64,000 nt of DNA, from assembly GCF_000224085.1 (NCBI RefSeq), contig NC_015945.1, forward strand, positions 3,774,501-3,838,500, written 5' to 3'. Below the pieces are notes generated by a model. That model worked only from the letters and a program-made list of their open reading frames with translations, ran no database searches and was not told where the DNA came from. The stretch comes from Allomuricauda ruestringensis DSM 13258 (lineage in GTDB: Bacteria; Bacteroidota; Bacteroidia; Flavobacteriales; Flavobacteriaceae). The position numbers and the translations under genes were made by a program. Positions 4,338-16,286 of this stretch are shown here, one piece after another (within the stretch, counting starts at the first letter, position 1; each line of letters starts with the position of its first letter).

Positions 4338-5744
4338 ATGAATCGTTCCCTGTATATGGTAAGATTTTTACTCGGCCTCACCTTAATGTCAACTTTTGTA
4401 TCGTGCTCTGATTCTTCAGAAAGCGGTTCCTCAGTTTTTTTTGGTGGTGAAATTGTAAATCCGACTAGCGATTATGTGGTACTTTACCACAACGATTCTT
4501 ATGTGGATTCCGTAAAGCTCGACGATAAAAACCACTTTTCTTTCAACTTGAATAACATTGAGGATGGGCTCTATCATTTTGATCATGCCCCAGAACTTCA
4601 GTATGTATACTTGAGCCAAGGCGACAGTCTTTTGGCCCGCTTGAACACTGTAGAGTTTGATGAATCTTTGGTGTTCTCGGGAACAGGTAGCGAAATCAAT
4701 AACTTTTTGATAGAGATTTTCTTAGCCACCGAAAAAGAGGAACCGATCATAAAAAGGTATTACAGCCTAGATCCTGAAGGTTTTAGTAAAAAGATAGACT
4801 CCTTGCATGCCCTAAAAATCAAACAGCTTGAAGAGTTGTCAACGGACAATTTGCTCTCAACCAAAGTTTTGGCCATGGCAGAGGCTTCCATAGATTACAA
4901 CACCTATATCAACAAAGAAAAGTATCCCTTCTATCACAAAAAGGAAACTGGTGAGGAAACCATTCATGAACTTGGGGATGATTTTTATGGTTATCGAAAA
5001 AGAATAGACTTCAACAATAAGGACCTTACCTATTTTAGGCCCTATTTTGATTTTATGAAGTGGCATTTTGGCAATATGTCCTACATGATATGTTTGGAAG
5101 ATTGCTCCACGGATAAGAAACCTGTAAGTGACCGTCTGCACTTTAACAAGCATAAACTTGCCCTAGTGGATAGTTTGGTGAACCAAACAGAGCTTAGGGA
5201 CATTCTTTTTAGGAACGTTGCCGTGGACTACCTACTACGGGAACACAACCCAAGTAAAGAGGCCACTATTTTTATTGATAAGTTTAAATCCCTCTCCACC
5301 AACGAGGAGCACAAGGAAGAAATTGAACTGTTGTACAACGGCATCAAAAACTTACAGCCAAACACAACACTTCCAGACATCATGGTCAAAAATTTTAATA
5401 ACGAAGAGGTCTCTCTAAAAGATTTGGCCAATAAAAGGAAGAGTACCGTATTCTATTTTTGGACCGCCGACCAAAAGAGACACTTTATTAATGTAAACAA
5501 GCATATTATTACTCTGGAGGAAAAATACCCACACTACAACTTTGTAGGCATTAACCTAAGAACCAGTCACTCGCAATGGAAACAACTTATGGACGAGTAC
5601 AAGCTGGACAAAAACAAGCAATTTTACGGGGAAAACTTCAAAGAACTACAAATGGCCATGATCATTGACGGGCTCAATAAGTGTGTTATTGCAAAAGACA
5701 CAGTAGTAGTTGATGGCTTTGCCAACCTTTTCACTTCTTTATAA
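4338..5744 (+). CDS. Thioredoxin-fold (AhpC/TSA-like) lipoprotein lacking the CxxC
   Basis: 468 residues. A lipoprotein signal peptide ends in the lipobox FVSC. The N-terminal part (about 30-110) looks like the beta-rich DUF4369-type domain that precedes TlpA-like proteins in Bacteroidota; a helical middle follows, and the last 130 residues form a thioredoxin-like domain starting at TTLPDIMVKNFNNEEVSL. Where active members have WASWCxxC, this one reads FYFWTADQKRH, with no cysteine pair, so thiol-disulfide exchange is not expected. Start chosen at ATG 4338; ATG 4356 (MVRFLLGL) would also give a good signal peptide. A hairpin follows the stop. Role unknown. Confidence 0.75.
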   Translation: MNRSLYMVRFLLGLTLMSTFVSCSDSSESGSSVFFGGEIVNPTSDYVVLYHNDSYVDSVKLDDKNHFSFNLNNIEDGLYHFDHAPELQYVYLSQGDSLLARLNTVEFDESLVFSGTGSEINNFLIEIFLATEKEEPIIKRYYSLDPEGFSKKIDSLHALKIKQLEELSTDNLLSTKVLAMAEASIDYNTYINKEKYPFYHKKETGEETIHELGDDFYGYRKRIDFNNKDLTYFRPYFDFMKWHFGNMSYMICLEDCSTDKKPVSDRLHFNKHKLALVDSLVNQTELRDILFRNVAVDYLLREHNPSKEATIFIDKFKSLSTNEEHKEEIELLYNGIKNLQPNTTLPDIMVKNFNNEEVSLKDLANKRKSTVFYFWTADQKRHFINVNKHIITLEEKYPHYNFVGINLRTSHSQWKQLMDEYKLDKNKQFYGENFKELQMAMIIDGLNKCVIAKDTVVVDGFANLFTSL

Positions 5745-6499: not shown

Positions 6500-7309
6500 T
6501 TACAACTTATAATGGTTGAGGAGTAATTTTTCGTAGACTTTGTCGGGTAATATCTTCTTTAACCTAAGGGAAAACTTTTGCAAAAATGCTCCGACAGGGT
6601 TGTGTACTTTTGGTTTTTCCTGGTTGATGATTCTATGTACGGCCTCAGCTACCTGTATAGGGTCTCCCCCACTATCCACATCGTTATTAATGGCTTTTAA
6701 GGTTTGAGAATACCTTTCTTCGTAGGCCGAACCTTCTATTACGGGGGAATGGTACCTGCCCGATGCAATGTTTGTTGCAAAATCCCCTGGCGCCACATTG
6801 GTTATAGTGATGCCAAAATCCTTGGTCTCCATACGCAACGCTTCGGTAATAAGTCCTAAAGCACCTTTGGTGGCGGAATAAAATCCGCGATAAGGCAACC
6901 CCATATATCCGGCAATGGATGTTATATTGATGATGGCTCCCCCACCCTGTTTGCGCATTTGTGGCAAAACGGCCTTCATCACATGTACGGGGCCATGAAA
7001 ATTAGTATCAAAAACATGAAGTATTTCCTCGTGTGGTGTTTCTTCAATAGGACCTGTAATGCCAACACCTGCATTGTTGATCAACACATCCAATCTGTTT
7101 TCTTTGGAAATTACATAGGAAACTGCCTTTTGAATGCTTTCCACATCCTTTACATCCAACTGAACAAGTTCAAAATCCTTAAAATCGGGATAGTTTTTTG
7201 GATTGCGTGTAGTACCATAAACGGTAAATCCTTTTTGGGTCAAATATGTTCCGATGGATTTACCAATACCTGAAGAACCGCCGGTGATCAGTACAATTTT
7301 TTTATCCAT
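6500..7309 (-). CDS. SDR-family oxidoreductase
   Basis: 269 residues from the ATG at 7309 (MDKKIVLITGG). Classical short-chain dehydrogenase: cofactor motif TGGSSGIGKSIG near residue 9, NNAGVG near 85, catalytic Ser in ITSIAG and YSATKGALG (Tyr-x3-Lys). Substrate unknown; the C-terminal tail (LQKFSLRLKKILPDKVYEKLL) resembles lipid- or steroid-type SDRs. An upstream in-frame ATG at 7342 would overlap the 3' end of the SRP RNA gene, so the shorter start is chosen. Only 28 bases separate it from the SRP RNA, and it has no clear promoter of its own, so readthrough from the SRP RNA promoter is possible. Confidence 0.88.
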   Translation of the reverse strand: MDKKIVLITGGSSGIGKSIGTYLTQKGFTVYGTTRNPKNYPDFKDFELVQLDVKDVESIQKAVSYVISKENRLDVLINNAGVGITGPIEETPHEEILHVFDTNFHGPVHVMKAVLPQMRKQGGGAIINITSIAGYMGLPYRGFYSATKGALGLITEALRMETKDFGITITNVAPGDFATNIASGRYHSPVIEGSAYEERYSQTLKAINNDVDSGGDPIQVAEAVHRIINQEKPKVHNPVGAFLQKFSLRLKKILPDKVYEKLLLNHYKL

Positions 7310-7337
7310 GATCATCTGATTTTTGGGTACAAAAAAA

Positions 7338-7431
7338 GGCAAGCTACCTACATCGCACCGCTACGACCACATACCCTTGCTGCGTTCCCGCCCTGGGGGA
7401 TTCTGCAGGAGCTGGTCGTGTAGGACTTGCC
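7338..7431 (-). ncRNA. ffs: Signal recognition particle RNA, small bacterial type
   Basis: Read on the minus strand, the RNA begins GGCAAGTCCTAC and ends GTAGGTAGCTTGCC, so the ends pair into a long stem. The apical domain contains CCCAGGGCGGGAACGCAGCA, the Bacteroidota version of the SRP domain IV that binds Ffh. The 3' end runs directly into seven Us (7331-7337), giving a built-in terminator. It forms the Ffh-RNA particle that delivers membrane proteins to the translocon. An excellent promoter sits immediately upstream. The ends are estimated from the pairing and may shift by a few bases. Confidence 0.92.
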
Positions 7432-7436
7432 GACTG

Positions 7437-7466
7437 CAAATATACGACCTTTTATATTTGTGACAA
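7437..7466 (-). promoter_or_regulatory. Promoter of SRP RNA (-33 TTG, -7 TATATTTG)
   Basis: On the minus strand TATATTTG (7437-7444) matches TAnnTTTG exactly and stands 5 bases before the first base of the RNA; TTG at 7464-7466 is 19 bases further up. Spacing and position are ideal for a Bacteroidota sigma-A promoter, and it anchors the 5' end of the RNA. Confidence 0.75.
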
Positions 7467-7743
7467 TCCCAATTCATTCTTAATTTCGGTGTTTTGGATC
7501 AATAGCGTCCTAAACGTTTTTTATACCCAGCCTTGTATTTTACTAGTGATACCAGTATATCAAGAGGGTAAGGGGGGATTTTTAGGCCGCTGACTTATGA
7601 CTTCAAGACTTAAGACGTATGACTTATATGTTTTGTAACACACAAAACATCAATATATTATCTAGGCTCAGTCATATATCTTATGTCCTACAGTCCTATG
7701 TCAAAAATATTTTGGACATTATCAGTTTTAGGATTAACAACTT
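7445..7743. other. Gene-free stretch with short repeats
   Basis: About 300 bases without a coding frame. It carries a run of related phrases (GACTTATGA, GACTTAAGAC, GACTTATATG near 7591-7630), a perfect 9-base inverted repeat ATGTTTTGT/ACAAAACAT at 7628-7650 with a 5-base loop and no T-run, and the start region of the next gene. No RNA gene recognised apart from the SRP RNA and its promoter at the left edge. Confidence 0.5.
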
Positions 7744-8808
7744 ATGATACAAGCAATAAGAACAATGGGCAAACTTTTTTCTATAACCGGGGTATTGCTC
7801 TTCTTTTTGGGCTGCGGTGGCAATGCCGATCCTGCCAAGCATTTTTCCATTCAGTTGGAAAACAAAAATATACAGCAAAACCAGCAAGTGGGTGTGACAC
7901 TGAAGAACAAAAAGGACATTGAAATTTCCGATCTTCGTTATTATATGGACGGGAAAGAATTACTCGTTGAAAACGGAAAACTGACCTTGGATCTACCAAC
8001 TTTGGGAAACAAAACCTTGGTGGCCAAATTCAATATTGAAGAACAAGCCGTAGAAGTTGAAAAAAAACTAAGATTACTGGCTGCCGCTGCCCCAGAAGTA
8101 TATACCTACGAAATCATAAACAGTTATCCGCACGATACGGGGGCTTACACACAAGGACTGGAGTTTTACAAGGGAACACTTTATGAAAGCACTGGTAAAC
8201 GAGGCGCTTCAACAGTGAGGAAAGTAAATTTTGAAACTGGGGAGGTGGTTACCAATATTCCCATGGACGATTCCGTATTTGGAGAAGGCATCACTATAAT
8301 GAACGATAAATTGTACCAACTTACTTGGCAAAGTGGCATGGGGTATGTGTACGATATCTCCAACTTGGAAAAGATAAAAAACTTTACCTATGGTAAAAGT
8401 CGTGAAGGTTGGGGGCTCTGTAACGATGGCAAAAAAATATTTAAAAGCGATGGTACTGAAAAAATATGGTTCCTAGATCCAGAGACCTTGGAAGAACAAG
8501 GCCATATTGAAATCGTGACCAACAAATCCATATTTAACAGCGCCAACGAACTGGAATATGTAGCTGGTAAAATCTATGCCAATGTGTACCAAAAAGAAAG
8601 TATGATGATCATTGATGCCACTTCCGGTGCCATAGAAGGGGTCATTAATTTTGGTGGCCTTAAAAACAAAGTAAGCAAGGGACCTGAATGGGACGAAGGA
8701 AATTCCGTGCTAAACGGTGTAGCTTATCACCCAGAAAGAGAAACCTTTTTTGTTACCGGCAAAAACTGGGACAAGCTTTTTGAGGTGAAAATCCGTAAAA
8801 AGGACTAA
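7744..8808 (+). CDS. Glutaminyl-peptide cyclotransferase, lipoprotein
   Basis: 354 residues. Signal peptide with lipobox LLFFLGC, then an N-terminal beta domain of about 80 residues of unknown role, then the glutamine cyclotransferase beta-propeller (YEIINSYPHDTGAYTQGLEF, GEGITIMNDKLYQLTW, GWGLCNDGKKIFKSDGT, NGVAYHPERETFFVTGK). The plant-type enzyme family converts N-terminal Gln or Glu of peptides to pyroglutamate; here it would act in the periplasm on exported proteins. The ATG at 7744 gives a somewhat long n-region; ATG 7768 (MGKLFSITG) is an alternative start. Its TAA overlaps the ATG of the thioesterase gene (TAATG), so both are cotranscribed. Confidence 0.88.
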   Translation: MIQAIRTMGKLFSITGVLLFFLGCGGNADPAKHFSIQLENKNIQQNQQVGVTLKNKKDIEISDLRYYMDGKELLVENGKLTLDLPTLGNKTLVAKFNIEEQAVEVEKKLRLLAAAAPEVYTYEIINSYPHDTGAYTQGLEFYKGTLYESTGKRGASTVRKVNFETGEVVTNIPMDDSVFGEGITIMNDKLYQLTWQSGMGYVYDISNLEKIKNFTYGKSREGWGLCNDGKKIFKSDGTEKIWFLDPETLEEQGHIEIVTNKSIFNSANELEYVAGKIYANVYQKESMMIIDATSGAIEGVINFGGLKNKVSKGPEWDEGNSVLNGVAYHPERETFFVTGKNWDKLFEVKIRKKD

Positions 8809-9197
8809 TGAAAAACTACTCCGAAGTTTTTGATGTAGTCCCAGATGATTTGGACGACCTAAACCATGTAAACAATATTAGGTATGTGGAGTGGATTCAG
8901 GATATTTCCAAAAAGCACTGGATGCAGGTTGCTCCCAAAGACATTCAAAAATCCATGATATGGGTGGTTCGGCACCACAGCATTACCTACCACAAATCTG
9001 CCGTATTGGGCAATACCATTAAAATAAGAACCTATATTAAAAGCAACAAAGGGCCCATTTCTACCCGTGTGGTAGAAATTAAGAACGATAATACCGATGA
9101 GCTATTGGTTAAATCGGTTACCGAGTGGTGCTTGTTGGATGCAAAGACTTTCCGCCCCAAAAGGGTTCCTGGGGAAATAAAGGTGTTATTTGAATAA
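8808..9197 (+). CDS. Acyl-CoA/acyl-ACP thioesterase, hot-dog fold
   Basis: 129 residues with the 4-hydroxybenzoyl-CoA thioesterase pattern: VVPDDLDDLNHVNNIRYVEW, where the Asp-x-x-x-His-x-Asn stretch carries the catalytic region, then a helix and IKIRTYIKSNKGPISTRVVEI strands. It would hydrolyse acyl thioesters in the cytoplasm; the chain length or aryl specificity cannot be read. One-base overlap with the preceding cyclotransferase gene shows translational coupling, although no functional link between the two is obvious. A second member of this family lies at 30188. Confidence 0.85.
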   Translation: MKNYSEVFDVVPDDLDDLNHVNNIRYVEWIQDISKKHWMQVAPKDIQKSMIWVVRHHSITYHKSAVLGNTIKIRTYIKSNKGPISTRVVEIKNDNTDELLVKSVTEWCLLDAKTFRPKRVPGEIKVLFE

Positions 9198-9428
9198 TTC
9201 AAAATAAACTACATCCATTACTTGTTTTAAAAAAAATTATTAACTTCAGGACATTGAAAAAGTAAAAATCGTGGACTTTTATCTTACCTCAACCTCATAG
9301 TCGGTTTTTATTTTTCAATATTCTCAACCTCAACATAATTTAATATAGCCTAGTTTGATTTATCTCAGAGAGGAAACCTATGCTCAAAATTTTAAAAGAA
9401 GGCAATTATTAACCTAAATCTTTTATCT
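9198..9428. other. Upstream region of the RiPP-like island
   Basis: 231 bases, strongly AT-rich, between the thioesterase and the small precursor gene. No exact TAnnTTTG box could be placed; TATTTTTC (in the stretch near 9310) and TAGTTTGA (near 9350) are imperfect candidates. A 10-codon ATG frame at 9379-9411 (MLKILKEGNY) could be a leader but is probably chance. Confidence 0.4.
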
Positions 9429-9563
9429 ATGTCTAAATCAGATGAATTTAAAGTTGAGGAACTTGAACAGCGCCTTGAGATGGCAAAATGGTCGAACACC
9501 TCAAAAGCCGCATGCACTAGTGGTGATTGTAGAGGATACATCGGTTTTAAAGTTTCAATTTAA
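9429..9563 (+). CDS. Putative RiPP precursor peptide (44 aa, Cx4C core)
   Basis: Starts at ATG 9429 and stops at TAA 9561-9563. Residues 1-21 form a charged, probably helical leader (EFKVEELEQRLEMAKW), and residues 22-44 a polar, small-residue core with Cys29 and Cys34 (AACTSGDCRGYIGF) and a short tail KVSI. This split between an acidic leader and a Cys/Ser/Thr/Gly-rich core is typical of precursors of ribosomally made, post-translationally modified peptides. It has no signal peptide. It is followed by a strong hairpin and then by genes for an isoprenoid enzyme and a PqqD/M50 protein, which fits a precursor-first operon. I do not recognise a named precursor family. Modified residues (Cys, Trp21, Ser/Thr) and leader cleavage point are unknown. 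Confidence 0.7.
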   Translation: MSKSDEFKVEELEQRLEMAKWSNTSKAACTSGDCRGYIGFKVSI

Positions 9564-9577
9564 TCGATGGTTTTATT

Positions 9578-9606
9578 CAACAATGGGGTCATTGACCCCA
9601 TTGTTG
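9578..9606 (+). promoter_or_regulatory. Perfect hairpin after the precursor gene
   Basis: CAACAATGGGGTC (9578-9590) pairs perfectly with GACCCCATTGTTG (9594-9606) around a 3-base loop. It starts 14 bases after the precursor stop codon. No T-run follows, so full rho-independent termination is unlikely; a partial terminator, or a 3' stabiliser that raises precursor mRNA over the enzyme genes, fits better. Confidence 0.75.
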
Positions 9607-9635
9607 CCATAACAAAGATCAATTATTCTGTAGGT

Positions 9636-10817
9636 ATGTTGTCAAAAAAAATATTCATTTATCCCCTGCTATTATCAGTTTGGACATTGTCTTCACAAGT
9701 TTTGGTTGATTCAGTTTCAAAGGCTCCAGTACCTTATGTTGAAATTTTCAACAATAGTAAAATAGGTACCATATCCGATGAACAAGGAAGGTTTTCTTTG
9801 GAAATGTTCAATCCAACAGATAGTGTTTTCTTCAAACATCTAACATACTTAAACATTGAAGGTACGGCCAATGAGTTTTATCCAAAAGACACCATATTTA
9901 TGGGTCCCCAAGCAATAGAGTTAAATGAGGTTTTCATAAATAGCTTCAATGCTCGAGATAGTGTAAAAAAAGCAGTATTACTGGCAAAAAAAAACCATCT
10001 TACAAGCACATACAAAACTATGGGCTTTTATAGAGAATATGTCAAAGAGGAAGGTGATGGAGTTTTTCTTGCAGAAGCCTCTTATGTCGGAAGTGTTGAA
10101 AATTCAAAAAAGGGAATTGACTATCAGATTAAAATTTTAGAAGGCAAAAAAACTGAAAACCTTTCCACTCTTGGAATCAACCTAGAGGGCGGCCCACAAA
10201 GACTGTTTGAAATGGGTGATATAATAGCTCAGGAAAACCTACTTTTTGACAAATCCAAAATCGATGAGTTTCAGTTTAATCTCGTTGCTATTAAAAATAA
10301 AGATGGTGACAAGATATATGAAATCAACTTTGAACCAATAACCAATAATTTGGAAAATAATCTTATGGGCACCATATTCTTGGAAGCGGGCAATCTATCA
10401 TTCGTTGAATTTTGTGCAAAACGAGACCCTGTTAAATTGAGGCAATTAGGGAAAATAGTAGAGGCTCGAACTAAAGATAAAAAGTCTCCCGCTCCAAATT
10501 TCAATTTAGTTCAATCGGAATTGATGCTCCGTTTTAGGAAAGAAAGCGGTAAGCAAATTCTAAGTTTTATAAAAATATTCAATCAACTTATGGTTCCCCA
10601 AAAGAGCAAATATTTTTTAATAGACATTAATGCCGCCACCTTAATAACTTCAATAAGTACCAATAAAAAACAAATCAAAACAAATTATAATCCTGAGCAA
10701 TCATTTGGATATGAACTTGACAAAGTGCCTCAAGGAGTTTCTTGGAGACCTGACTACACCATATATTTTGGGGAAACCGAAAAAAAAATTCTGAATGATA
10801 TTACTAGAAAAAAATAA
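9636..10817 (+). CDS. Secreted carboxypeptidase-regulatory-like domain protein
   Basis: 393 residues from ATG 9636 (MLSKKIFIYPLLLSVWTLSS). A longer frame starting at 9567 would run through the hairpin and lack a signal peptide, so it is rejected. After the signal peptide comes a CarboxypepD_reg-like beta domain (about 20-90: VLVDSVSKAPVPYVEIF, GTISDEQGRFSL, IELNEVFIN), then a 300-residue beta-rich region starting YKTMGFYREYVKEEGDG that is shared by many Bacteroidota envelope proteins of unknown function. No TonB-dependent barrel follows. Located between precursor and synthase genes, it may bind, sense or help export the product; that is inference. Confidence 0.7.
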   Translation: MLSKKIFIYPLLLSVWTLSSQVLVDSVSKAPVPYVEIFNNSKIGTISDEQGRFSLEMFNPTDSVFFKHLTYLNIEGTANEFYPKDTIFMGPQAIELNEVFINSFNARDSVKKAVLLAKKNHLTSTYKTMGFYREYVKEEGDGVFLAEASYVGSVENSKKGIDYQIKILEGKKTENLSTLGINLEGGPQRLFEMGDIIAQENLLFDKSKIDEFQFNLVAIKNKDGDKIYEINFEPITNNLENNLMGTIFLEAGNLSFVEFCAKRDPVKLRQLGKIVEARTKDKKSPAPNFNLVQSELMLRFRKESGKQILSFIKIFNQLMVPQKSKYFLIDINAATLITSISTNKKQIKTNYNPEQSFGYELDKVPQGVSWRPDYTIYFGETEKKILNDITRKK

Positions 10818-10865
10818 TTCAATCTCAAAAACCCAATCCAATGATATGAAAAAATGAATTGAGAA

Positions 10866-12803
10866 ATGCTAAAACAGACCTACTTATTGCAGGATGATTC
10901 GGCCTTAAAGGACAAAATTTTTCAAAAAACAAAGCTTCGTCTTTCATCCGCAGCCCTTCCTGCAAAAATTATTGATGCTATCGTAAGCATGGGATTTGTC
11001 CTAGAAAACCCCGATTATTATATTTCTTACCCTTACCTGTTCAAAGATGCTTTTGCAGTGGATGATGAAACTCTGGACTTGCTTTCCGTGGCCGGTTTTC
11101 TTTACTACCGATCAACGATGGCCATTGACGGTGTATTTGATAATAAAAACAGTGATGGCTCTTTTGACCAATACATCATTGCGAATATCTGTCAAGAGCA
11201 GACTATAGCAATTCTATCAAGGATTTTGGGCGGCAACAAAGTATTTTGGCAATCATGGACCAGACGGAAACTGGAATATATTAAAGCATACCAAATTGAT
11301 TTTAATCCAAATAATGAAATAAAAACCTTCGATGAATTTTTACAACTGGCTGATTTAAAATCAGCTATAGGCAAGATTAGCTTGGATGCCCTCAACATCC
11401 TGTCCACACCAAAAACAGATAGAATTGTTTATCAAAACCTTCTTGATTCACACCGTTATTTTTATGGAGCCTTTCAAATTTTGGACGATCTCTATGATTT
11501 TGAGGAGGACACCATTTCTGGACAGGCCAATGTGGCAAGAACAATCTTGTTTAGAGAATATCCCAATAGCATAAAATATCCATTAAAGGAACAAAAGGAA
11601 TGCATCTACACAAAAGGAATTGCCGATTTGTTGTATGACAAAGCATTGGGGTTTATCGACAAATCTCTTGTTGGTATAGAAAAATACAATGTTCCCAGAT
11701 GGAAATCAGAAATCCAATCACTGCATAATACAATTGTTATACATAGGTCCAACGTTTTTGGTTACTTATTTCACTCCAAAAAGAAACAAATCAATGATTA
11801 CGACAAGAAAGAATTCACCAGTCAAAAGGACAGTATACAAAGTGCAAAACTCTACCTTGAAAGAAGCTTTGTAAATGATAATGGTTGGAAGGATTACTTA
11901 AATGGAGCGGGAGTTAGTGATGTTTGGGTGTCTTACTTTGTTCGTTTCTTTTACCATGAAGCATTTCCCGATGACAGAATCCTTGAAAATGGAGACCCTC
12001 ATTTGTCACTAAAGTCCGAATCGGGGAAAAGACCTTTATTGGGATATAATAAATATTGGATTCCAGATGCTGACACAACTTCATTCTATATCCTCTCAAG
12101 GTATATTCATGATGGGGTAATTGAAAATGAAGTTTTAGAGGAGTGGCTTGGATACCAAAACAGAGATGGTGGATTTAGAACCTACAATAACGATGAGCAG
12201 CTTTATGCATCCCTTAACGACAAATCAGCTTCAGATGTTTCAGGTTGGCTCAGTTCCCATTTTTGTGTCAGTGCAGTTGCATTTTATGCCATGTGCCGAT
12301 TGAACCTTGAAATAGAGCGAAAATCAGCTTTAAGAGGATATTTATTGAATAGTATAACAAATGGATATTATCAATCTTATTGGTGGTGCTCTCCGGTTTA
12401 TGGCCTTTCATTTATAGTTCTATCCTGTTCTGTTGAAAATGACAAACCCTTGTTGGAATACTCCGTTGATCTTATTAAGGATGAATTTCAAAAAAATCCG
12501 GACCTGAAAGAGAATTCTTTTTTTTCCGGCCTTGTACTTTATGCACTTTCCAAAACCCCGAAAAAAGCGAAAATGGCCAAAGACCTGTGCATTATGCTCA
12601 AAGAACAATTGATTAACAGTCAAAAAAAGAATGGTTCTTGGGGTCCAAATTTAAGCCTAAGGATTCCTAGTCCCTCAATTATAAATACAACTGAAGTTAA
12701 TAATTGGTCAACAGGGACAATAGGAACTAACATTATACTAGAAGACTTCAACTGCCTTTTTTCAACTGCTGTTTCAATGGCGGCATTGGAGAGCACGATA
12801 TAA
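10866..12803 (+). CDS. Fusion: class I isoprenoid synthase-like domain + class II terpene cyclase-like domain
   Basis: 645 residues, no signal peptide. Residues 60-310 form an all-helical isoprenoid-synthase-like domain with two Asp motifs: DGVFD (88-92, first-motif position, second Asp replaced by Gly) and DDLYDFEED (207-215), followed by GQANVAR. Residues 330-645 resemble the alpha-barrel of squalene/terpene class II cyclases: SDVWVSYFV, the general-acid motif DADTT (401-405, DxDD/DxDTT type) and two QW-like repeats, QNRDGGF (431-437) and QKKNGSW (586-592). Class I domains ionise or couple prenyl diphosphates; class II domains protonate and cyclise them. In this operon it could prenylate the precursor, as ComQ does to ComX, and cyclise the chain, or make a separate terpene. 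The gene lies 48 bases after its neighbour and 1 base before the next. Confidence 0.75.
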   Translation: MLKQTYLLQDDSALKDKIFQKTKLRLSSAALPAKIIDAIVSMGFVLENPDYYISYPYLFKDAFAVDDETLDLLSVAGFLYYRSTMAIDGVFDNKNSDGSFDQYIIANICQEQTIAILSRILGGNKVFWQSWTRRKLEYIKAYQIDFNPNNEIKTFDEFLQLADLKSAIGKISLDALNILSTPKTDRIVYQNLLDSHRYFYGAFQILDDLYDFEEDTISGQANVARTILFREYPNSIKYPLKEQKECIYTKGIADLLYDKALGFIDKSLVGIEKYNVPRWKSEIQSLHNTIVIHRSNVFGYLFHSKKKQINDYDKKEFTSQKDSIQSAKLYLERSFVNDNGWKDYLNGAGVSDVWVSYFVRFFYHEAFPDDRILENGDPHLSLKSESGKRPLLGYNKYWIPDADTTSFYILSRYIHDGVIENEVLEEWLGYQNRDGGFRTYNNDEQLYASLNDKSASDVSGWLSSHFCVSAVAFYAMCRLNLEIERKSALRGYLLNSITNGYYQSYWWCSPVYGLSFIVLSCSVENDKPLLEYSVDLIKDEFQKNPDLKENSFFSGLVLYALSKTPKKAKMAKDLCIMLKEQLINSQKKNGSWGPNLSLRIPSPSIINTTEVNNWSTGTIGTNIILEDFNCLFSTAVSMAALESTI

Positions 12804-12804
12804 A

Positions 12805-13986
12805 ATGAATAAAAAAGCAGACAAAATACCACTTAAATCATCTTGTATCTCAATATGTGAAATAGGAGATAAATTTTTGCTCCACGAAACTAATCATGGC
12901 CATCGCATTAGGGTCAATCAAACTGTAATCAGACTATTGGAACTTGTGGACGGGAAGTCCAATATAGACTACATAAGAGAGCAAATGAGCTCTTACGGTT
13001 CTTTTTCCAATGATGAAATTCATAACCTTTTATATCATACTTTGGGCAAGTTTGGCTTTATTGTTAATGGGAATGTTGAGGTCATTAAAATCAATAAGCC
13101 AGAATACCTTAAATTGAGCCTAACTTTGCTCAGTGAAGAAAAAGTATCTTTTATAGCAAGATATTTAAAATGGCTTTTTTCAAAGAATTCTTTTTTTACT
13201 GTTTTTTTTCTTTTATTTCTCACTTTGCTATATGTTCAATACAATTATTTTGATAGGGCATTATATTTTTTAGAAACCATGACGATGAAAGAATGGTTAG
13301 GAATAATTTTGTTTGCAGGTGCAAGCCTTTTTTTCCATGAGTTTGGACATGCCTCTTCTTGCAAGGCATTTGGAGCAAAACCTGGCGGGATAGGTTTTGG
13401 TTTTTACCTATTGAGTCCTGTAATGTATGCTGACGTATCTGATATATGGAGATTACCTGTTAAAGAAAGAATAATAGTGAATCTATCTGGTATTTACATG
13501 GAAATGCTATTGAGCGTTCTATTGTTTGGAGTATATATACTTACCAAAGACCTATGGTTTTTGGTGTTAACCTCTTTCTGTTTTTTATCACTTTTTGCTA
13601 ATCTTAATCCATTTTTAAAATATGATGGTTATTGGGTTCTTTCGGACTTAACTGGATGTCACAACTTAAGAAAACAATCAAACTTTCACCTTAACAGTTT
13701 ATTGAAAAGTCGTGGCAAAATGGAAAAAAACAACATTTTACTAGCCCTATATGCCGCCATTGCCAATATAATGATAGTTACCTTTATTATTATTGTTTTA
13801 ATTACCGATTCAACTGGACTTATCGATTTTCCGAAAAATTTGTTTCAGACCGTGACCTCATTATTCGGTACAGAAAAACAGTTTTTCATTAAGGACATTT
13901 ATCCTCTCTTGGTACCTACAATTTTTTATTTCATCTTAATCAAATTGTTGTTTGTGAATGTCAAGAAATTTTTTAGAAAAGTATAA
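12805..13986 (+). CDS. PqqD-like domain fused to M50 site-2 membrane protease
   Basis: 393 residues. Residues 10-90 look like a PqqD-type RiPP recognition element (HGHRIRVNQTVIRLLELVDG, then a helical FSNDEIHNLLYHTLGKFGFIV). The rest is a polytopic M50 protease: zinc motif HEFGH (178-182) inside a membrane helix and the third-ligand motif NPFLKYDGYW (268-277), with other membrane segments at about 130-147, 165-177, 226-247, 250-267, 315-335 and 370-388. Such proteins occur in peptide-maturation clusters, where they may bind the leader and cut the peptide in or at the membrane. It starts one base after the synthase stop, so cotranslation is likely. Its AT content is visibly higher than that of the housekeeping genes. 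Confidence 0.82.
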   Translation: MNKKADKIPLKSSCISICEIGDKFLLHETNHGHRIRVNQTVIRLLELVDGKSNIDYIREQMSSYGSFSNDEIHNLLYHTLGKFGFIVNGNVEVIKINKPEYLKLSLTLLSEEKVSFIARYLKWLFSKNSFFTVFFLLFLTLLYVQYNYFDRALYFLETMTMKEWLGIILFAGASLFFHEFGHASSCKAFGAKPGGIGFGFYLLSPVMYADVSDIWRLPVKERIIVNLSGIYMEMLLSVLLFGVYILTKDLWFLVLTSFCFLSLFANLNPFLKYDGYWVLSDLTGCHNLRKQSNFHLNSLLKSRGKMEKNNILLALYAAIANIMIVTFIIIVLITDSTGLIDFPKNLFQTVTSLFGTEKQFFIKDIYPLLVPTIFYFILIKLLFVNVKKFFRKV

Positions 13987-14725
13987 CAATAGTGGTGTTG
14001 CAAAATATATTCAAAGTAGTGTTCATCGCTTTGGATGGAATAGAATGTTTTTTCTATGTTTTGTCCTGTTTGCCAACTGTATTGCTGCACAAAAAAATGA
14101 AGTGTTACATGGTAAGATAACTAACAATGAAGCCCATGGTATCCATATTCTGAACGCAACCCAGAATGTAGGCACTATTACCGATGACTCAGGAAACTTT
14201 TCCATTTCTGCCAAAAAACACGATACGATAATTTTCTCGGCCATAAACCTTGAACCGTTGAAATTGATTGTTACCGATAGGGTTTTGGAAATCGAACTGA
14301 ACATTACATTAGATCAAAAGGTTATTGAATTGGATGGCGTCACCCTTAATCCATATGGACTGACAGGTTCTCTTTCCAAGGATGTTTTGAACATCCCAAA
14401 CCCCATAACAGCAGAATCCCTCAACCTTCCCAACTCCTCCACCCCTATCATAACATCTAATCAAAGAAAATTATACGAGGCTGATAGCGGTAATTTTATA
14501 GAGTTATATGGTAGTTTTCCGGAAGCTGGCATTGCTATCAATCTACATAAAATTTTAAATAGAGTGTCGGGAAGAACAAATAAAATCAAGAGAATAATCA
14601 ATTATGAAAAAGGAGAAGAAATTATAAATCAGCTTAATACAAAATTCAAGCATCTTTATCCAAATCTAACTGAATCCGAAACCTATAATTTGGCTTTGAT
14701 AGAGTTTTATAAAAAATACGATTAG
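13958..14725 (+). CDS. Carboxypeptidase-regulatory-like domain protein
   Basis: 255 residues if started at ATG 13958, which overlaps the M50 gene by 29 bases; ATG 14045 (MFFLCFVLFANCIAAQKN) gives a cleaner signal peptide and may be the real start. Mature protein: one CarboxypepD_reg-like domain (VLHGKITNNEAHGIHILN, GTITDDSGNFSI, ELDGVTLNPYGL) followed by a 130-residue tail ending NLALIEFYKKYD. This single-domain form with the same tail style is common in flavobacteria, function unknown. It closes the island operon. Secretion by Sec to the periplasm or outer membrane is expected. Together with the 9636 product it frames the two enzyme genes. Confidence 0.7.
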   Translation: MSRNFLEKYNNSGVAKYIQSSVHRFGWNRMFFLCFVLFANCIAAQKNEVLHGKITNNEAHGIHILNATQNVGTITDDSGNFSISAKKHDTIIFSAINLEPLKLIVTDRVLEIELNITLDQKVIELDGVTLNPYGLTGSLSKDVLNIPNPITAESLNLPNSSTPIITSNQRKLYEADSGNFIELYGSFPEAGIAINLHKILNRVSGRTNKIKRIINYEKGEEIINQLNTKFKHLYPNLTESETYNLALIEFYKKYD

Positions 14726-15239
14726 AAGGATGGTATAGGTTGATTCATCCCCATACTACCCAACAGACTAAAAAAACCTACCGGCGTAATCCTAAAGATC
14801 AAACAAAATCAAAGTTTTGAAAAGCTGTTTTATTCATTTTTAATAAAAAAGCTGTGCATTTCATCGAATTTTAAACGAATATTTGAAAAAGCACCAACCA
14901 AAATTTTGATGCCCACGCAACAAATCGTAATATAGTACATAACCAAAACGCAAACTAAACCTATTTGTTCAACCAATTAAATGCAAAACACCCCCTTTTT
15001 ACATTTTATATTTCCCTTGATTTGATTCTATAGAAAACAGTTCTTTTTTCGCAGTTGAATATGATGTGGAACAAGCACGCTAAACTTTCAAATTTGGTGT
15101 TGTTATCCGTGTTTTAACGATTTTTTATAAGGAATTGTAGGAAAAAAGCCCATTTTAGGGAGAAACCCATAGTTTTTTTAAGGGAAAACTGCAATGAGTT
15201 TTTTTTCTACGTTAGTAACTTGCAGTCAGCATTTTGCAC
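14726..15239. other. AT-rich gene-free stretch
   Basis: 514 bases between the island and the LytTR regulator gene. Only very short ATG frames (at most about 18 codons) occur. No clear terminator, no exact TAnnTTTG box and no recognisable RNA were seen. Composition stays as AT-rich as the island, so the island's right edge may extend through here. Confidence 0.45.
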
Positions 15240-16112: not shown

Positions 16113-16286
16113 ATGAAAAAAGTATTTAGCATTTTAGCCATGGCATTATTAACAGTTGGTTTCTACTCTTGTGAAACCGAAACCGACGTACAGGAAACCG
16201 AAGCGTTGTTCGAGCAACTAACGGTAGACCAGAACGCTACGGATGACGATGAGATGGAGACAGATGGTAGAGGAGATAATGAATAA
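16113..16286 (+). CDS. Small acidic lipoprotein (57 aa)
   Basis: Starts MKKVFSILAMALLTVGFYSC: a lipoprotein signal with lipobox FYSC at Cys20, leaving a 38-residue mature part that is very acidic (ETETDVQETEALFEQ, then NATDDDEMETDGRGDNE) with a single Arg. The good signal peptide, ATG start and position in a gap between two regulators support a real gene. A terminator 270 bases downstream would end its transcript. Function unknown; a surface-exposed signal peptide or a ligand of the neighbouring kinase are possibilities only. Confidence 0.6.
   Translation: MKKVFSILAMALLTVGFYSCETETDVQETEALFEQLTVDQNATDDDEMETDGRGDNE

Follow-up and report, generated by a model that had tools for sequence, protein, structure and literature searches.

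ChrPC and NctPC are the closest described systems. According to the available part of a review (PMC13290415, citing Hubrich et al. 2024), each combines a prenyltransferase with a cyclase domain, prenylates a RiPP Trp and cyclises the attached chain. In that text, the trans-IDS-like P domain of ChrPC acts on an internal Trp with a C10-C20 donor and its C domain cyclises the chain, NctPC adds a C20 chain that is then cyclised by an MstE-like cyclase, and Trp is given as the target of all characterised trans-IDS-like peptide prenyltransferases (PMC13290415). ChrPC may, at a guess from its name, come from a related Bacteroidota genus. In the partial accounts compared, ComQ/ComX and PalQ/PalX resemble the locus studied here in that a trans-IDS-like enzyme prenylates Trp in a small peptide, and they differ from it in having no RRE-M50 partner. 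To our knowledge, neither has a fused cyclase. ComQ possesses the FARM and lacks the SARM in the available text of PMC10853753. MstE is a free-standing, monodomain class II meroterpenoid cyclase; judging from the entry titles, it was crystallised with prenyl dihydroxybenzoates and with a product, rather than with peptides. On the protease side, EpeP probably both cuts a RiPP and exports it, as stated in the accessible part of PMC10885120.

The window (the whole 64,000-nucleotide stretch of DNA analysed here) carries, by ORF reading, five genes on the + strand between positions 9429 and 14725, all of which had been listed in a preliminary description. Our best explanation, which we put at about 0.7 from sequence evidence, is a RiPP cluster gained by horizontal transfer and making a lipopeptide with a cyclised isoprenoid (terpenoid): W21 of a 44-residue precursor would be prenylated, the chain cyclised and the leader cut by an M50 protease. 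As far as the review's description goes (PMC13290415), the window is like ChrPC and NctPC in fusing a prenyltransferase and a cyclase for a RiPP Trp; it has both the fusion of a prenyltransferase to an MstE-like cyclase and an adjacent leader precursor with a Trp core. By analogy, the proposed chemistry is of a known kind, because the available text describes both enzymes acting on RiPP Trp, and the earlier statement that no such pathway had been described gives way to this shared enzyme architecture (PMC13290415). Set against the same description, the features that are possibly new are the family of leaders, the pairing with an RRE-M50 protein, a second type of cyclase and the replacement of P by a divergent LpxL-related protein. 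Among the literature matches listed, neither the leader family with an RRE-M50 nor an LpxL-related RiPP enzyme was found, a result that holds for those matches and makes no claim about print at large.

The boundaries of the unit were given by comparison with G384, a genome of the same genus in which the genes flanking the cluster lie just 376 bp apart and encode a thioesterase and a LytTR regulator 81% and 90% identical to those of the window. In the window, the two genes are separated by about 5.7 kb of lower GC content (34.6% in the cluster versus 40.9% in the rest of the window). DNA similarity with G384 ends at position 9178 and restarts at 14855, so that the unmatched stretch 9179-14854, to which no strand applies, marks the extent of the insertion. 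The site is occupied by a different 517-aa ORF in G229, another genome of the genus, and searches with the fusion and M50 profiles gave no match in G384 or G229. Because the empty site bounds it and the profiles are unmatched in both genomes, the five-gene unit is a discrete acquired block. No transporter gene is present within it.

The first gene (9429-9563, + strand) encodes the 44-aa precursor, for which we propose a leader of residues 1-20 and a core starting at W21, the proposed prenylation site, whose codon (9489-9491, + strand) directly follows the leader. The leader is common to small ORFs located beside related enzymes, with the pattern F-x-V-E-E-L-E-x-R-x-E-M, and the core is variable. 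Leader models built by leaving out one locus at a time recovered 14 of 14 tested peptides among 4198 ORFs with E values of 2.3e-4 or better. The window precursor was recovered at E 8e-11, its near relative L070 having been kept in that leader model, and it is the sole leader match in its own genome. The core ACTSGDCRGYIG is also found in L070, which belongs to another family, despite fusion enzymes that are just 39.7% identical, and P0041 keeps the CTSGDC of the core. A hairpin with a 13-bp stem (9578-9606, + strand; -24.1 kcal/mol, z -3.1) follows the precursor stop codon and is a proposed attenuator, which would hold expression of the peptide above that of the enzymes. Of 44 precursors at P loci, 29 are followed by sequence with a fold z below -2, computed over 93 bases from the stop with 60 shuffles per precursor. 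Where precursors form arrays, the fold signal is confined to the last peptide in L069 (six peptides), L124 (three) and L126 (two), while both peptides of L117 and neither of the two in L020 show it.

The 645-aa protein has a two-domain fold, a trans-prenyl-synthase-like part followed by an MstE-like class II cyclase. The fold and motifs of its P domain (10866-11738, + strand) are those of a trans-prenyl-synthase-like prenyltransferase, with a FARM D88xxxD92 (11127-11141, + strand), in which the second Asp of DDxxD is missing, and a SARM D207DxxD211 (11484-11498, + strand). D88, D92, Q204, D207, D208 and D211 are invariant in the 12 rows of alignment A2, and the QxxDDxxD SARM is present in 39/41 P ORFs, the P domain of L071 lacking the pattern. 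P scores 13.2 bits against the 27-bit PF00348 cut-off for canonical trans-isoprenyl diphosphate synthases. In such enzymes, the GKxxRP and RRG stretches are IPP-binding motifs. GKxxRP is found in none of the 41 P ORFs, the window protein included; RRG is missing from the window protein and occurs in one of the 41 (L021), where it lies away from the FARM. The two canonical synthases of this genome carry GGKRMRP/KGKQMRP and RRG, and one of them adjoins a gene that, from its sequence, we take to be lycopene-cyclase-like. Since the IPP-binding motifs are lost in P, chain elongation by this domain is unlikely. The C domain (11814-12803, + strand) combines the MstE fold with a DxDTT acid motif (DADTT, 12066-12080, + strand); its D403 aligns with the acid D109 of MstE, the residue mutated in entries 6sbe and 6sbd. 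The likeness to MstE thus covers fold, motif and acid, and the difference is that MstE is not fused.

One base further on, at 12805-13986 (+ strand), lies the gene for a 393-aa protein with a PqqD/RRE winged-helix fold (residues 7-91) and an M50 site-2 protease part, recognised by fold comparison, with HExxH (HEFGH, residues 178-182, 13336-13350, + strand), a second DG motif and the S2P membrane fold. Foldseek by itself gave the RRE match at E 6e-3 only. Membership of the daptide or epipeptide clusters was considered and rejected: the protease lies far below the equivalog cut-offs of both the daptide HExxH protease NF041824 (128.9 of 300 bits) and the YydH/LiaK epipeptide protease NF058609 (66.8 of 225 bits), the latter standing for the EpeP/YydH kind. 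Epipeptide clusters have a radical SAM gene and daptide clusters have tailoring genes; both are absent from the five genes of the window. A radical SAM gene does overlap the end of the M50 gene in L071 (7304-8797), where an extra modification is possible. The folds thus bear out the preliminary description of a class I plus class II isoprenoid fusion beside a PqqD-like/M50 protease, and its proposal of ComQ-like prenylation of the peptide, with possible cyclisation of the prenyl group, fits the folds and motifs. In the mechanism we propose, maturation proteins would bind the leader, as the RRE fold of the protease suggests. P would transfer a C10-C20 prenyl group from its diphosphate to W21, a step suggested by its family and by the Trp pattern given below, and the C domain would protonate and cyclise the attached chain with D403 as the acid, as in MstE. 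Through its lipid, the peptide would be held at the inner membrane; there the RRE-M50 would cut the leader from the core and may help release, for which EpeP is a precedent.

A close-relative scan of genome contigs with the single fusion protein gave no relative, an alignment scan of the same contigs gave one locus (L018), and a scan of viral contigs gave no relative of the fusion. The fusion profile A1 matched 15 of 397 family genomes; 12 of these 15 loci match P, and 11 of the 12 have an M50 gene. The M50 profile A3 matched 22/395 phylum genomes and 13/397 family genomes at 1e-15; at 1e-30 it matched 4/79 and 28/246 genomes in two further families. With M50 E < 1e-40 and a length below 460 aa, 55 M50 loci were counted; L081-L084 (719, 830, 478 and 393 aa), where P, leader and acyltransferase-like searches all gave no match, seven further M50-profile rows and G920:C23 (four stops inside) fall outside this count. 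P is present in 40 of the 55 loci, a divergent LpxL-related protein in 12, both in none and neither in three (L074, L134, L140); without the 12 P loci that seeded A3, the numbers are 28, 12 and 3 of 43. The exclusivity of P and the LpxL-related protein gives a Fisher value of 1e-9, with kinship of loci ignored. Distances between P proteins and between M50 proteins correlate (r 0.85; 0/5000 permutations as high) over 28 loci chosen among those examined. Because the loci are related to one another, both the Fisher and the permutation values overstate independence.

A leader-model precursor was found in 38 of the 40 loci with P and M50. The exceptions are L073, where a leader-like ORF was recognised by its motif, and L145, which has none. 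Precursor, isoprenoid enzyme and RRE-M50 therefore travel together as had been supposed, and the opposite outcome, fusion homologues consistently lacking a precursor, was looked for and not borne out. All 48 leader-type precursors lie 5' of P and share its strand, and the gap between P and M50 is -94 to +40 bases in 36/40 loci. P is fused to an MstE-like cyclase carrying DxD(T/S) in the window, L018-L021, L070 and L071, and to a cyclase-like domain of a second type, marked by DxDDL(G/A)Q, in L022, L025, L069, L072, L075, L077 and L078; L117, L118, L120, L121 and L143-L145 were assigned to the second type by profile, and in L119 this cyclase is split from P in a neighbouring gene. Stand-alone P occurs in L023, L028-L030, L032, L073, L122-L131, L141 and L142 (in two pieces in L131), and these loci retain precursor and M50 with no cyclase. 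Four loci are outside the unit pattern: L024, L027 and L031 have the class II part only, and L026 has a P fragment with no M50 found. L140 (5338-9932) is a decayed cluster that lacks P and retains a two-piece M50, the remnant of a cyclase and a Trp-bearing leader ORF.

The core Trp was then compared between locus types, leaving out L073 and L137-L145. Every core contains Trp in the 19 loci with a fused or split cyclase (of which L119-L121 are >99% identical), whereas a Trp core of any kind is found in 7/15 stand-alone-P loci and 2/8 P-less loci. Trp lies within six residues of the leader in 17/19, 3/15 and 0/8 loci, respectively. Since the cores of 8 of the 15 stand-alone-P loci are all Trp-less, Trp is not the acceptor across the wider family. 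These Trp-less precursors, of the EFTFY/EFIFY type and often rich in Cys, Pro and Gly, accompany stand-alone P in L122-L125, L129 and L131, as well as in L030 and L032; they are the main exception, and another residue may be the acceptor there. The conserved Trp could instead be a site of leader recognition or cleavage. Extended to the window, W21 would belong solely to the site for the protease or for leader recognition, and another core residue (Cys, Tyr or Ser) would carry the isoprenoid; the Trp-less, Cys/Tyr-rich cores of the same eight loci speak for this reading, but it is improbable given Trp in all fused or split loci, its lack near the leader in P-less loci and the Trp preference stated for all characterised trans-IDS-like peptide prenyltransferases in the available part of PMC13290415. 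In L127, L128 and L130, EFTFY-type precursors end in a Trp after a Gly run, which resembles the C-terminal Trp modified by PalQ.

The two remaining genes encode CarbopepD_reg-like secreted or envelope proteins on the + strand, B1 (9636-10817; ORF open from 9567; domain below the Pfam cut-off) and B2 (14045-14725; ORF open from 13958). B1 relatives of 370-430 aa are found near P in L019, L020, L022, L025, L070 and L117-L121. We would guess that B1 and B2 have an envelope role in export, docking or self-protection. Downstream of the unit lie a LytTR gene at 15234 and, by eye, kinase- and regulator-like ORFs up to 19404. These genes, the ComQ-like fold and the Trp would suit a ComX-like prenylated signalling pheromone with the two-component genes as its sensor, a reading that we consider slightly less probable still than attachment to another core residue: ComQ lacks the SARM in the available text of PMC10853753, whereas the SARM is intact in the window protein and in 12/12 rows of A2. 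The LytTR gene was moreover rejected as a member of the unit, because the two same-genus genomes without a fusion or M50 match carry it, at 90% and 77% identity; it is resident. A 57-aa lipoprotein-like ORF lies 3' of it (16113-16286), and L157 has a similar ORF in the corresponding position (4395-4559).

Least probable is that the fusion works as a standard bifunctional terpene synthase and releases a free terpene, with the small ORF and protease as unrelated neighbours: both domains have terpene-enzyme folds, and class II relatives occur without M50 or leader match in L024, L027 and L031 (adjoining a weakly polyprenyl-synthase-like DUF5685 in L024 and a sub-cut-off DUF5685 in L027), but the lost IPP-binding motifs, the leader-type ORFs of the P+M50 loci and the precursor and M50 kept by stand-alone P without cyclase all argue against it.

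Beyond the terpenoid lipopeptide reading of the window, the P-less loci may point to a wider pattern. The leader model matched in 9/15 of them; in L133, L137, L138 and L085, leader-like ORFs were recognised by motif, and L074 and L080 have none. An LpxL-related gene lies within a few kb of M50 in 12 of the 15 (L076, L079, L080, L085, L086, L132, L133, L135-L139), several with tandem leader-type peptides. Seven of these 12 loci seeded the LpxL-related model; L080 and L086 were already BLAST-matched, and the last three, L137-L139, were added afterwards. Pfam Lip_A_acyltrans places L136 over and L076 just under its cut-off, the rest being tied by BLAST or HMM, and Pfam names no acyltransferase for L079, L085 and L132. 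LpxL enzymes have an HX4(D/E) acid. This acid follows the conserved His in L080 only and is missing in the other 11, and the H-x-G stretch is missing in L086, L137 and L138. Since it lies about 4 kb from M50 and keeps HX4E, the L080 gene may be an ordinary LpxL, and the count excluding it is 11/15. P-less M50 loci with an LpxL-related gene possibly represent an acylated RiPP class.

The window may then belong to a lipid-RiPP platform spread across the Bacteroidota, an idea to which we give somewhat less than even odds. It would consist of an xLExRxE leader class, an RRE-intramembrane protease and an exchangeable lipid-attaching enzyme, namely P alone, P fused to either of two cyclases, or the LpxL-related acyltransferase-like protein. 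Lipidation would serve as a membrane ticket letting the intramembrane protease reach a soluble precursor, and core sequence and lipid could therefore evolve separately. If true, this would explain why an intramembrane protease serves small soluble peptides, and terpene-capped ribosomal peptides would become large, modular and open to mining as a class, with natural leader/core/enzyme combinations in the dozens, some of them Trp-less. It would also provide tools for placing ring-closed terpenes on chosen peptides and make the interchangeability of lipid-attaching enzymes on one leader class testable. Two of the P-less loci have further particularities: in L134, a CAAX-protease (Rce1-like) gene (9652-10410) comes after M50 and a leader ORF, and in L135, fourteen tandem precursor ORFs (6565-8239), most of them near-identical (MNLQELDLQELEQRFEM...), are located 5' of the M50 gene.
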